From Solidesulfovibrio carbinolicus (GTDB taxonomy: Bacteria > Desulfobacterota > Desulfovibrionia > Desulfovibrionales > Desulfovibrionaceae), in contig NZ_CP026538.1 of the NCBI RefSeq assembly GCF_004135975.1, forward strand, positions 2,790,001 to 2,854,000: a stretch of DNA of 64,000 nucleotides, written 5' to 3'. How positions within the stretch are numbered: the stretch's first letter is position 1; every line of letters begins with the position of its first letter. Positions 44,373-63,160 of the stretch are shown here, piece after piece. The notes under the pieces are model-generated. The model made no database searches. It was not told where the DNA came from and worked only from the letters and a program-made list of their open reading frames with translations. The position numbers and the translations under genes are program-made.

Positions 44373-44939
44373 ATGAACCTGACCCTGACCATCTCCGGCG
44401 TCTGCTGCGATCTGGCCCTGCATCCGGTGAACGTCGAAACCGCCGCCCGCGTCTGCATGCTCGGCGACAATCTCTACAAGACCAACTCCATCGAGTGGTG
44501 GCGCGCCAACAGCAACAACACCTGCGGCATGCGCCTGACCGCCGATGCGCGCATCGAAGCCGCCCTTGACGGCGCTTGCATTGCTTTCGACGTCTCCCGC
44601 ATGAGTGCTTCGGCCGCCATGCTCACCCAGCGGCCCTTCCTGGAGAGCCCGGAAAAGAGCCTGTGCCTGCTCGGCTACGACGACGAGGCCTGCTCGCGCA
44701 CCTGGACCTGGCGCAACGTCACCGACTACGACATGAGCCGCTTCGAATTTTTCGTCCAGCGCTGGGACGCCATCCTCGGCGTGGCCGACTACCTCGTCAT
44801 CGACGACGTCTGCTACGACGGCCGGCCGGCCGATGAAGCCGTCTGGGGCGAAAGCGAAGGCTTCACCTTCCGCACGCCGCTCATCGTGCCCGCCGCCGCC
44901 GCCCGCGAACTCGCCGCTGCCACGCGTCGCGCCGCGTAG
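44373..44939 (+). CDS. Unknown cysteine-rich cytosolic protein
   Basis: Not recognised. It has 188 residues with no signal peptide and no membrane helix. There are eight cysteines, at about 11, 12, 28, 51, 69, 98, 107 and 147, plus a Trp-rich segment (TWTWRNVTDYD, EWWRANSNN). The start ISGVCCDLALHPVN is beta-rich. The cysteines are not in a known metal motif. AAGGAG before ATG 44373 is a strong ribosome site. It is divergent from a sigma-54 activator and has a -24/-12 promoter, so it is likely to be induced under a specific condition. Function unknown. Confidence 0.8.
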   Translation: MNLTLTISGVCCDLALHPVNVETAARVCMLGDNLYKTNSIEWWRANSNNTCGMRLTADARIEAALDGACIAFDVSRMSASAAMLTQRPFLESPEKSLCLLGYDDEACSRTWTWRNVTDYDMSRFEFFVQRWDAILGVADYLVIDDVCYDGRPADEAVWGESEGFTFRTPLIVPAAAARELAAATRRAA

Positions 44940-44957
44940 CGGCAAGGAGAGAAGAGG

Positions 44958-45058
44958 GAAGAGCCTCCGGCGGCCAGGAGAGGCGCTGCCTCTCCTGGAC
45001 CTCTCCGCTGGGGGCCTTAGGCCCCCAGACCCCCATCATGGGAAAATGTTCAAGGGGG
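44958..45058 (+). repeat. Palindromic 3'-end element, copy A
   Basis: Core GCCTCCGGCGGCC (44963-44975), then an 11-bp hairpin (44974-44984 / 44988-44998) with a GCT loop, then a second hairpin CTGGGGGCC-TTA-GGCCCCCAG (45008-45028). It starts 19 nt after the stop of the gene at 44373-44939, on the same strand. A third pairing of CCCCC with GGGGG runs into TTTT at about 45059, so the end resembles a terminator. Confidence 0.75.
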
Positions 45059-45211
45059 TTTTGACGTCTGCCGATGGTTTGGTCGGGTGTGGTCCGGGCC
45101 ACGTCATGAACACATAACCAACGATCTTCCCACGCTGGCGAACGGGCAACCGTCCTCCTCCCGCCCGCCAGCGCCAGCCGGTTCCCGCCATGCCGCCGGC
45201 CGCCAATACCG

Positions 45212-45249
45212 ACGCCGGCCTGGAGAAGGTCCCCTCTCCAGGCCGGCGT
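45212..45249. repeat. Perfect 15-bp inverted repeat
   Basis: The arms at 45212-45226 and 45235-45249 pair without mismatch around the loop AGGTCCCC. It lies just upstream of copy B of the palindromic element. Confidence 0.8.
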
Positions 45250-45262
45250 TATGTTGCGGGGA

Positions 45263-45316
45263 GAAGATATGCCTCCGGCGGCCGGGGGCCTGAGGCCCCC
45301 GGACCCCCCGCATGGG
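45263..45316 (+). repeat. Palindromic 3'-end element, copy B
   Basis: GAAGATATGCCTCCGGCGGCC, with a 9-bp hairpin CCGGGGGCC-TGA-GGCCCCCGG (45282-45302), then a second short hairpin CCCC-GCAT-GGGG at the end. This copy is not directly behind a gene. Confidence 0.75.
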
Positions 45317-45384
45317 GAAAGGGGGCGGCTGCGCCGCAGGGCGACAAACGGTTCCTGCTCGTTCTTCCTGGAATCTTCCTGTTT

Positions 45385-45431
45385 GGGGGCGCGTTTTTCG
45401 CCAGGAGGAACCTGGCGAAAAACGCGCCCCC
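45385..45431. repeat. Perfect 21-bp inverted repeat
   Basis: The arms at 45385-45405 and 45411-45431 are fully complementary and contain a central TTTTT/AAAAA run. The loop is AGGAA. It adjoins copy C of the palindromic element, downstream of the thrC stop on the minus strand. It would form a very stable hairpin in RNA on either strand. Confidence 0.85.
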
Positions 45432-45491
45432 TAACTGGGAGGGTCCGGGAGGGGGTAACCCCCTCCCGGCCGCCGGAGGCATCTTCTTCTT
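45432..45491 (-). repeat. Palindromic 3'-end element, copy C
   Basis: On the minus strand it begins about 10 nt after the thrC stop with GAAGATGCCTCCGGCGGCC, then an 11-bp hairpin CCGGGAGGGGG-TTA-CCCCCTCCCGG (45469-45445). The stem sequence differs from copies A and D while pairing is kept. Confidence 0.75.
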
Positions 45492-45500
45492 ACGTTCTCA

Positions 45501-46952
45501 TCATTTACGCGCCAAGCCCAAGCTTTCGACAATGGCCGAGGCGGCCTTGGCGGTGTAGTCTTCGGGAGTCAGCGCCGCCTTGTCGGCGTCGGTCATGATG
45601 GAGCGCGGCCGGTTGACGTACTTGGAGTCGGCCTTGACGCCGTAGGCGGCGGGGAAGCTGTCCTCAAAGTACATTTCCTGGAAGCCGATGAATTTGAGGT
45701 GGTGGGCGGTGGCGTCGAGGATGGCCTCTTCGGAGGCTTCGATAAGCCCGAGTTCCTTGGCCTTTTGCAGGCCGGCCAGGCATTCGCCGCCCTGGGTGCA
45801 ACTGATGTGGCCGTGGCGGTTGGCCAGAAGCATGCCTTCGACGATGGCCTGCTCGGTGACCTGCACCACCTGGAAGCTGCCGGGGCCGCCGATCTTTTCG
45901 TATTCCTTGGCGAAATGGGCCACGCGCGGAAACGACACCGGGTTGCCGATCATGGCCGCCTGGGCGGCGCTGGGGGTGACGGGCACGGCCCTAAACTCGC
46001 GTTTGGCCGGATCGGCCTCGTCGTAATACTGGAAGACCGGGTCGGCGTGGTGGGACTGCACGCCGAAGATGCGCGGCAGGGAGCGGATGATGCCGAGCTT
46101 TTTGAGCTTTAAAAAGCCGCCCATGATGGCCGTGACGTTGCCGGCGTTGCCGATGGGCACGAACACGCATTTGCGGTAGGTGTCCCAGCCGTACCACTGG
46201 GCCACTTCGAAGGCGTAGGATTCCTGGCCGAGGATGCGCCAGGCGTTTTTGGAATTGAGCAGCGCCACGCGGTAGTTGTCGGCCAGATGCTCGACGACCT
46301 TCATGCAGTCGTCGAAGACGCCGGGCACTTCGATGACCGTGGCCCCGCTGCCCAGGGGCTGGGCCAGTTGCTGGGGCGTCACCTTGCCCTTGGGCAGGAT
46401 GACCACGGACTTGATGGGGCCGCCGACATAGGCGGCGTAGAGCGCGGCGGCGGCCGAGGTGTCGCCGGTGGAGGCGCACACGGTCAGGACCGAATCCCAG
46501 CCGTTGACCCGCACGAGATGCTTCAAATAGCTGAACGCGCAGGCCATGCCCCGGTCCTTGAAGGAGGCGCTGGGGTTTTGGCCGTCGTTTTTATAGGCAA
46601 ACGGTACGCCGACCATCTCGGTCAGGGCGGCGTTGGCGCTAACGATGGGCGTATGGCCCTCGCCCAGGTAGACGATGTCCTGTTCCTCCATGACCGGGGC
46701 CATGAGCTCATAAAACCGCAGCACGCCGCGCAGGGCCGTGGAACGCGAAGAGGCGCGCTTGTCGAAAAGGCCCTGCCAGTAGCTGGCCGGGTATTCAAGC
46801 AGGCTGTCGAAGGTGGTGTCCTCAAGCAGGAACACGCCGCCGCAGTGGGGGCAGGTGTAGTAGAGTTCGCGAATGTCGAACCGGGCCTGGCAGCCCAGGC
46901 AGACGTACTCCATCTTGCCCCGGTATTTGGGAAAATCGCTCGTCGTAATCAT
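45501..46952 (-). CDS. thrC: Threonine synthase with N-terminal zinc ribbon
   Basis: A PLP enzyme of 483 residues that converts O-phosphohomoserine to threonine. It has an N-terminal ribbon with Cys18, 21, 34 and 37 (CLGC ... CPHC), a variant known in archaea and some Deltaproteobacteria. The PLP-binding Lys132 is in NPSASFKDRG, and SVLTVCASTGDTS carries the phosphate site. GGGAG precedes ATG 46952. It lies upstream of the DUF456 gene in the opposite reading order on the same strand, but no overlap is seen. Palindromic elements follow its stop. Confidence 0.93.
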   Translation of the reverse strand: MITTSDFPKYRGKMEYVCLGCQARFDIRELYYTCPHCGGVFLLEDTTFDSLLEYPASYWQGLFDKRASSRSTALRGVLRFYELMAPVMEEQDIVYLGEGHTPIVSANAALTEMVGVPFAYKNDGQNPSASFKDRGMACAFSYLKHLVRVNGWDSVLTVCASTGDTSAAAALYAAYVGGPIKSVVILPKGKVTPQQLAQPLGSGATVIEVPGVFDDCMKVVEHLADNYRVALLNSKNAWRILGQESYAFEVAQWYGWDTYRKCVFVPIGNAGNVTAIMGGFLKLKKLGIIRSLPRIFGVQSHHADPVFQYYDEADPAKREFRAVPVTPSAAQAAMIGNPVSFPRVAHFAKEYEKIGGPGSFQVVQVTEQAIVEGMLLANRHGHISCTQGGECLAGLQKAKELGLIEASEEAILDATAHHLKFIGFQEMYFEDSFPAAYGVKADSKYVNRPRSIMTDADKAALTPEDYTAKAASAIVESLGLARK

Positions 46953-53884: not shown

Positions 53885-53956
53885 CCTCCCCATGTCGGGA
53901 GGTCCAGGAGGGGCTGAGCCCCTCCTGGCCGCCGGAGGCATCTTCATCTTCTTCTT
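53885..53956 (-). repeat. Palindromic 3'-end element, copy D
   Basis: On the minus strand it begins 13 nt after the ferredoxin-nitroreductase stop with GAAGATGCCTCCGGCGGCC, then an 11-bp hairpin CCAGGAGGGGC-TCA-GCCCCTCCTGG (53928-53904) and a second hairpin CCTCCC-GACAT-GGGGAGG. Confidence 0.75.
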
Positions 53957-53969
53957 TTATTACAAAGAT

Positions 53970-54752
53970 CTACAACCATTTTGCCCTTACCGCATTGCGG
54001 GGCGGCACGGCGGCGTAGCGCAGGGCCGGGTAGCCGAGCATGAGTCCGCCTTCGATGACGCAGCCTTGGGGTATGCCCAGGGCCTTGGCCAGGGCGGCGT
54101 CGTTGCGGGCGGCCCGCACGAGCAGTCCGGCCCAGCAGGTTCCCAGGCCCCGGGCCACGGCGGCCAGCTCCATGAAGGTGAGCGCGATGCCGCAGTCTGC
54201 CGCGCCGTAGGGAGCGTCGGCCGGGGCATAGGCCACGGCCAGAGCCGGCGCGCCGCGAAGGAAAGCGTCGCGGCCTTCGGTCCACATGGCCGAATATTTG
54301 GGTCGCGTGCCGGCGGCGGCGAAATACGTGGCGGTCTTGGCCGCCAGGTCGTGGACCTTGGCCGGATCGACGGTGACGCACCAGCCCACTTCCTGGGCAT
54401 TGGAGGCGGTGGGGGCAAAGCGGGCCACGTCGAGGAGCGTTTCCATGGTTTCGCGGGCCACGGGCATGTTCTTATAGGCCCGAATAGAGCGGCGGCCGCG
54501 CAACATGCCGTCCACGATCTCGGGGTCGGGCCAGTGGCGCAGGGTCTTGGTCATGGCCGCCGGATCGACCCGGCTGATGGTCAGGGCGGATTTGGGGCAC
54601 ACGGCCACGCAGTGGCCGCAGGCGATGCACAGTTTTTCTTCGGCGACCACGGGCCGGCCGTCGGCGCCGGCTTCCAGGCAGCCACTGGGGCAGACGACGG
54701 CGCACAGGCCGTCGGCGTTGCACCGCTCGTTATCCAGGGTCAAAAATGGCAT
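53970..54752 (-). CDS. Ferredoxin-domain nitroreductase
   Basis: A protein of 260 residues. The N-terminal 60 residues form a two-cluster ferredoxin: CNADGLCAVVCP (11-22) and CIACGHCVAVCP (42-53). In the first motif Asp14 takes the place of the second Cys, as in P. furiosus ferredoxin and D. africanus FdIII. From about residue 80 the sequence is a nitroreductase: RRSIRAYKNMPV, ARFAPTASNAQEVGW and GLGTCWAGLL. Electrons would pass from ferredoxin to FMN; the substrate is unknown. GGAGGT precedes ATG 54752. It is divergent from the receiver gene. Confidence 0.88.
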   Translation of the reverse strand: MPFLTLDNERCNADGLCAVVCPSGCLEAGADGRPVVAEEKLCIACGHCVAVCPKSALTISRVDPAAMTKTLRHWPDPEIVDGMLRGRRSIRAYKNMPVARETMETLLDVARFAPTASNAQEVGWCVTVDPAKVHDLAAKTATYFAAAGTRPKYSAMWTEGRDAFLRGAPALAVAYAPADAPYGAADCGIALTFMELAAVARGLGTCWAGLLVRAARNDAALAKALGIPQGCVIEGGLMLGYPALRYAAVPPRNAVRAKWL

Positions 54753-63081: not shown

Positions 63082-63160
63082 ATCGGGATAGGGGGGAGCC
63101 TTGCGGCTCCCCTCCTCCCACACCACCGTGCATACGGGTCCGTACACGGCGGTTCGGCAA
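63082..63160 (-). ncRNA. Group II intron domains V and VI
   Basis: On the minus strand a 30-35-nt hairpin (about 63122-63153; arms ACCGCCGTGTACG and CGTATGCACGGTGGT) matches domain V, though its tetraloop reads GACC rather than GAAA. The next hairpin GGGGAGCC-GCAA-GGCTCCCC, with a bulged A near CCTATCC and the end CCCGAT, matches domain VI. Catalytic residues are inferred by position. Confidence 0.8.

Follow-up and report, generated by a model that had tools for sequence, protein, structure and literature searches.

Little is known of how transcripts are ended or trimmed in GC-rich bacteria that lack strong U-run terminators, and a tagged hairpin recurring in a 64-kb stretch of DNA (the window; 2.79–2.85 Mb of a 4.69-Mb Solidesulfovibrio genome) raises the question of what such an element does at gene ends. 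Four copies are present where the preliminary description had located them, namely at 44958 on the plus strand (A), 45263 plus (B), 45491 minus (C) and 53956 minus (D). Their stems are AGGAGAGGC in A, GGGGGCC in B, GGGAGGGGG in C and AGGAGGGGC in D, and each pairs perfectly across a 3-nt loop (GCT, TGA, TTA and TCA, respectively). The 19-mer ascribed to all four is exact in C and D, and near variants of it occur in B (3 mismatches) and A (one letter shorter). With up to 3 mismatches allowed, the 19-mer matches the window 3 times against 0.13 expected, a number reached in 0 of 100 shuffles. Copies A, C and D indeed start 19, 10 and 14 nt past the stop codon of a gene on the same strand. Copy B is not at a sense gene end: it lies head-on to C, and the nearest same-strand stop is 332 nt before its tag.

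Copy A spans 44963–45006 on the plus strand and, as judged by sequence and fold, comprises the tag GCCTCCGGCGGCC (44963–44975) and the stem-loop AGGAGAGGC/GCT/GCCTCTCCT, followed in the sequence by GGACC at 44997–45001 and a C-rich repeat of the right arm. The core lies 24 nt past the stop of a plus-strand gene ending at 44939. A second hairpin, again from sequence and fold, occupies 45008–45028 on the same strand (CT GGGGGCC TTA GGCCCCC AG, then ACCCCC); its stem is that of the commonest subtype of the family, while the loop differs. Copy B (45271–45317, plus) consists of the tag, GGGGGCC/TGA/GGCCCCC, GGACC and a small second hairpin, CCCC GCAT GGGG. Copy C (45435–45480, minus) contains the tag, GGGAGGGGG/TTA/CCCCCTCCC, GGACC and CCCTCCC, with the tag positioned 21 nt past the stop of threonine synthase (45501–46952, minus), which shows 98% identity to the threonine synthases of two Solidesulfovibrio magneticus assemblies. 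Copy D (53894–53939, minus) is built of the tag, AGGAGGGGC/TCA/GCCCCTCCT, GGACC and CCTCCC, the last of which could pair with GGGGAGG further on, outside these coordinates; its tag is 31 nt past the stop of the minus-strand gene 53970–54743. Between B and C lies a long perfect hairpin with an internal T5/A5 (45385–45431), which reads terminator-like from C (CCCTCCC-AGTTA-GGGGG-CGCG-TTTTT); the relative G133 carries its 5-nt loop in inverted orientation.

A genome-wide count, proposed as a check in the preliminary description, gives 245 exact 13-mers (119 + 126) of GCCTCCGGCGGCC, compared with 0 for the reversed control. To place the tags relative to genes, we called genes with a simple codon-usage script rather than a standard annotator, and sampled 464 kb, made up of the window and 20 stretches of 20 kb at even spacing, taking C or T as the last letter of the tag. 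All 32 tags of this even sample are intergenic, with 0 in coding sequence. The upstream gene is in sense for 26 of 31 tags, and placement is not random, as 25 of the 31 stand in sense at 3–41 nt past a stop (the 26th being B, at 332 nt), whereas only 7.5% of random intergenic strand-positions of this genome fall in sense within 60 nt of a stop. The genome G058 (460 kb sampled) behaves similarly: among its 62 tags, 2 of which lie in coding sequence, 43/58 are in sense and 41/58 within 60 nt, against 10.9% at random. Smaller samples gave 3/3 in G109 (with 2 further tags inside predicted genes), 3/5 in G133, where the gene caller performed poorly (47% coding), and 6/7 in sense with 4 within 60 nt in G069, which belongs to another genus. 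Placement is weaker at short loci of six other genera, where 8/23 tags are in sense within 60 nt, and about 1 in 5 copies in the own genome and 17/58 in G058 lie more than 60 nt from a sense stop or have none.

Scoring 352 gene ends of the own genome for a tag within 100 nt, we found tags at 0/93 same-strand gaps of up to 40 nt, 2/62 of 41–120 nt and 12/98 wider ones, as well as at 12/96 convergent ends and 2/3 edge cases. Since the element is absent at tight joints and present at wide and convergent ends, it likely marks transcription-unit ends, and convergent ones are not preferred. In total, 28/352 gene ends bear a tag; most do not. Close pairs of elements are mostly convergent (3/4 in the own even sample, 10/12 in an own hit-centred sample and 11/14 in G058); G109 and G069 each have one divergent pair, and G133 has none. 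A composite mobile unit bounded by B and C as a matched inverted pair is unsupported as a general rule, as most pairs judged by eye have differing stems and convergent genes by themselves would yield convergent pairs. Long hairpins similar to that at 45385–45431 recur between convergent elements at L035, L039, L040 and L169, and the same four loci share with B–C of the window the order type-1 element, long hairpin, type-3 element.

The stems vary throughout the family while their pairing is kept. A perfect stem of at least 6 bp adjoins the tag in 28/32 copies of the even sample, 91/106 own tags and 45/60 tags of G058, compared with 0.2–0.5% when the following letters are shuffled and 0.5–0.6% after other GGCY sites. 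For a measure independent of pairing, we let the GGA..CC anchor alone define where the stem ends on the right and scored the first six positions over 1000 shuffles. In 88 own copies, each left arm pairs with its own right arm at 0.968, against 0.673 for shuffled arms (maximum 0.746), and the values in 56 copies of G058 are 0.943 and 0.743 (maximum 0.807). The copies are related and comprise few independent kinds; reduced to distinct arm pairs over these six positions, the 13 kinds in the 88 own copies still give 0.872 versus 0.678 (maximum 0.846) and the 15 kinds in G058 give 0.822 versus 0.596 (maximum 0.733). The early observation that stems differ and keep pairing thus extends from four copies to the family, and covariation is present. 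Two further analyses agree with the anchor-set test, although both are biased because register or copies were selected by pairing. In the first, a register-by-pairing parse of a somewhat relaxed tag found a hairpin in 113 of its 126 own-genome copies; these represent 47 different stem-loops, of which GGGGGCC(TGA) is the most frequent (40/113). The remaining 13 comprise 9 whose tag is missing its first C, two elements, L022 and L038, whose stem is imperfect or longer, and two sites, L046 and L048, at which no element is seen. In the second, an alignment of 37 copies picked for perfect stems shows both-side changes in 7/11 pairs (68 cells versus 20 shuffled); the outermost pair fails in 5/35 rows and the next in 9/35.

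Covariation reaches beyond the stem proper. The last base of the tag covaries with its partner (C-G 92, T-A 9, other 12; n=113), and bulge size downstream of the stem tracks the number of As at the start of the left arm (AAA with AAA 13, AAA with AAT 4). The commonest subtype continues as ACCCCCCANATGGGGAAAGGGG (41 copies, with conservation of only about one half at some positions), which provides a small second hairpin. The stem mismatches point in another direction: selection on the sense RNA should favour G.U, and the excess of A.C over G.T on the sense strand (12 versus 4, from 16 mismatches in 204 copies; p=0.08) therefore leans against a sense-RNA reading and fails the wobble expectation of more G.T than A.C. 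The first hairpin (H1) is predicted to fold at -20 to -25 kcal/mol in A–D. With surroundings included, the fold z-scores are -4.3 for A, -7.7 for C, -3.4 for D and -0.8 for B, so that B is not unusual for its composition.

The tag itself had been likened to a single-stranded anti-Shine-Dalgarno target, a proposal that we reject. At tag-plus-hairpin sites, conservation runs across the whole 12-mer rather than CCUCC alone (exact to one-mismatch tags 26:7), and the tag is predicted to be partly paired, with GCC-UCC-GGC forming its own 3-bp hairpin and the tag end entering the stem. In the degenerate-core scan one mismatch is informative (7 versus 0–1); once 2 or more mismatches are allowed, six shuffled cores match as often and the scan no longer discriminates. 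In models, the CCUCC of the tag can alternatively pair with the left arm while the right arm has yet to be synthesised (-6 to -11 kcal/mol), which makes it a candidate folding switch.

RNA 3' ends are suggested jointly by the sense placement at likely ends of transcription units, the fixed polarity and the retained pairing. The best explanation, to which we give slightly less than an even chance, would be a lineage-specific dispersed 3'-UTR stem-loop that sets and protects mRNA 3' ends and has spread by insertion and gene conversion. Specifically, the sense RNA would run from the stop codon through a mostly purine leader of 3–41 nt into the tag GCCUCCGGCGGCC and a perfect stem with a tight loop, followed by a bulged GG-A-CC closing segment and often a C-rich stretch able to form a second small hairpin. 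The stem sequence would be free to vary provided that pairing is kept. Transcripts ended further on by Rho or another U-independent route may be trimmed back to the stem, whose predicted stability would halt 3'-to-5' exonucleases and so protect them. In GC-rich genomes, U-less stem-loop 3' ends may be I-shaped terminators or Rho-dependent transcript ends protected from 3'-5' exonuclease, according to PMC8269248. We tentatively favour the protected Rho-dependent end for the present element, as stem stability is kept while the sequence is free. The position and stability of the stem-loops ending Rho-dependent transcripts in that source fit the element, which differs in being one sequence family with a common tag and hundreds of recurrences. 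The sparse occupancy of gene ends and the weaker placement in the six other genera count against this reading, as do the copies away from sense stops, the small number of independent arm pairs and the mismatch count. One recognisable tagged element with many natural paired variants occupies 100–360 tagged places per Solidesulfovibrio genome. For one of the species, D. magneticus RS-1, a genome-editing method has been published (PMC6210102), so the 3'-end question is directly testable.

Could the hairpin itself release RNA polymerase? A U-less (I-shaped) or modified intrinsic terminator, acting through the hairpin or through H1 plus the second hairpin, perhaps with a tag-reading family-specific factor, is in our estimate rather unlikely. 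Intrinsic terminators, including the U-less I-shaped ones of GC-rich bacteria, share with the element a stable GC stem soon after stops, and the occurrence at likely unit ends but not at tight joints agrees with this. In its favour, 4/88 own copies, among them C, bear a run of T5 or more after the second hairpin, and T-runs occur in some copies of other genera, e.g., L137 of G082 and L142 of G023. An intrinsic terminator, however, has its U-run directly after the hairpin, and 84/88 own copies show no T5 within 30 nt (T4 or more exists in 7/88); on the short loci of other genera, T4 within 25 nt is seen in only 3/26 copies. A canonical terminator is thereby excluded for most copies. The transcript-end element of the preliminary description is supported by position, orientation and pairing, but not as a terminator of canonical form. 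To our knowledge, neither a fixed sequence tag nor a bulged closing segment is a feature of terminators. DNA uptake sequences from which terminators are built in Neisseria and Pasteurellaceae resemble the element in tying a conserved oligomer to gene-end hairpins (PMC1852404); they form both arms of the stem and generally number at least 1,000 copies, whereas the present oligomer is single, lies 5' of the stem and has 245 copies.

The threonine synthase locus also argues against the U-less terminator. About 250 bp past the stop, beyond B and across the C...B block from the gene, an intact hairpin at 45212–45249 is probably the old threonine synthase terminator, and it carries no T-run on the gene-read side, unlike in three relatives. 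In a comparison of 14 genomes of the genus, C is present in the four closest and was not found in nine, with one end unreadable; those same four genomes carry D, which was not found in ten. Most of the nine genomes without C have, by eye, a GC hairpin after the stop, followed in three by a T-run of at least 4, and in relatives such as L250 a hairpin that looks similar by eye stands soon after the threonine synthase stop. The C...B block thus intervenes between the stop and this hairpin, most simply through an insertion, with loss elsewhere as the alternative. The locus may illustrate how a repeat comes to occupy gene ends next to terminators of earlier origin. One of the nine genomes without C (G149, L258) bears a degenerate opposite-strand copy, with the tag GCCTCCGGCGTCC, at the threonine synthase 3' end. 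We also regard as unlikely a family-wide 3'-end code, under which a putative Desulfovibrionaceae factor would read GCCUCCGGCGGCC plus the bulged GG-A-CC and make or protect a 3' end lacking a U-run; with equally low confidence, the stem would drift while pairing, as the element takes over gene ends and supplants earlier U-run terminators.

A repeat of REP type, selfish or neutral, that lands in permissive post-stop space without RNA function seems quite unlikely. The nine Solidesulfovibrio genomes of a family-wide draw hold 117–363 tags each, and at least one tag occurs in 122/149 genomes of that draw, low counts including coding-looking matches. A covariance-model search returned at least 96–150 candidates per genome in 14/14 Solidesulfovibrio genomes, values that are lower bounds rather than copy numbers. 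We further scanned 247 genomes of the phylum Desulfobacterota with a fuller pattern (CCTCCGGCGGCC, 9–36 nt, GGACC), which matches in 28, with 169 matches in the own genome, 23 and 8 in two of eight other family members and none in six. Outside the family, 25 genomes have 1–4 matches each, and among those listed one (G389) could form a 5-bp stem; within this sample, more than 4 matches are restricted to Desulfovibrionaceae. The presence of C and D in close relatives only, near-identical copies such as the 40 with GGGGGCC(TGA) and the species-specific dominant stems would suit a selfish repeat. In G133, about 94–96% identical to the window in nucleotides, inspection by eye accepts 11 own tags of the overlap as true elements (five further loose-pattern matches look coding); 11/11 are at the same place, two with mutated tags, and the single G133-only match is not an element. 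At L049:18275 the G133 stem is a chimera of two types, which suggests gene conversion and would also fit a selfish repeat. We know of no enzyme for such gain by insertion or gene conversion.

The strong sense orientation, the kept pairing and a tag common to several genera all stand against a purely selfish repeat, as does sequence retention: between own genome and G133, at sites selected by the tag of the own genome, 351/379 positions of the element are identical, against 240/290 for the leader and 346/447 for the trailer. REP elements have stem variants within one genome. Like the REP/BIME/REPIN families of E. coli, Pseudomonas and Stenotrophomonas, the present element (245 tags; 32/32 intergenic) is a high-copy short intergenic palindrome, and PMC3733652, PMC12306157 and PMC8266576 describe such palindromes as lying in some cases near stops and as proposed mRNA stabilisers. 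REP palindromes are flanked by a GTAG (or CGTC) tetranucleotide (PMC8266576, PMC3733652); the element has its 13-letter tag there instead, mostly oriented as the upstream gene, and in the 37 aligned copies, picked by tag, the tag directly adjoins the stem, neither GTAG nor CGTC intervening. The RAYT/Y1 transposase family PF01797 had no match in G058 (363 tags, the most tag-rich genome scanned), G097 (211), G109 (121) or G009 (127), and RAYT-driven REP was rejected on this basis; G000 has three PF01797 matches. At the gathering score, no Rfam family matches the element in the whole window, and a permissive search of 44900–45520 gave 13 weak matches (best 30 bits versus a cut-off of 58). The single gathering-score match is a group II intron elsewhere, at 63082–63154 on the minus strand (41.9 bits, cut-off 40). 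A literature search returned no description of a tag-hairpin element, a weak negative as subscription papers were mostly outside its reach. By anatomy, the element stands between REP elements and terminators, matching the full definition of neither.

Reading the opposite strand, one may envisage a terminator or roadblock for opposing transcription, in which the antisense hairpin, with GGCCGCCGGAGGC and then a pyrimidine tail (CATCTTCTTC) downstream, would shield the gene 3' end from convergent transcription. We consider this improbable. Purines dominate the 20 nt preceding the tag (A 0.42, G 0.38; 88 copies), a stretch that becomes a pyrimidine tail when read from the other side, a point against the 3'-UTR stem-loop as well; the excess A.C mismatches would read as G.U in antisense RNA, and a simple terminator scan flags the antisense side of C. 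The tail, however, is U/C rather than U and is separated from the stem by a 13-nt gap, and convergent ends are not enriched (12/96 versus 12/98 wide same-strand gaps). A translation-level element stalling the last ribosome near the stop codon, by analogy with E. coli REPs within 15 nt of stops (PMC12306157), is very improbable: of the 25 own tags close to a stop, 8 begin at a distance of 15 nt or less, as this reading would expect, but the other 17 start beyond the reported range.

Variant forms of the element occur outside the own genome. Among phage-contig stretches with the pattern (n=21), about 9 have hairpin copies by eye, and a 75-nt query containing copy B matched no plasmid record. The phage or prophage contigs L317:4026, L331:1797 and L332:6649 bear the element; the first two copies are in sense, 10 and 29 nt past a stop, and the third is followed by a T6 run. 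In G109 (L194, L199, L200) and G058 (L238, L240), the tag is joined to a long A/T-centred stem (AGGGGGAAACTTTTTGAAAAAAGTTTCCCCCT in G109), mostly followed by GGACCCC and AAAAACT. G065, a member of another genus, has a double-hairpin version (L333, L344, L355), in which a short H1 is immediately followed by a different second hairpin, e.g., GTCAAGGGGGTGACCCCCTTGAC.
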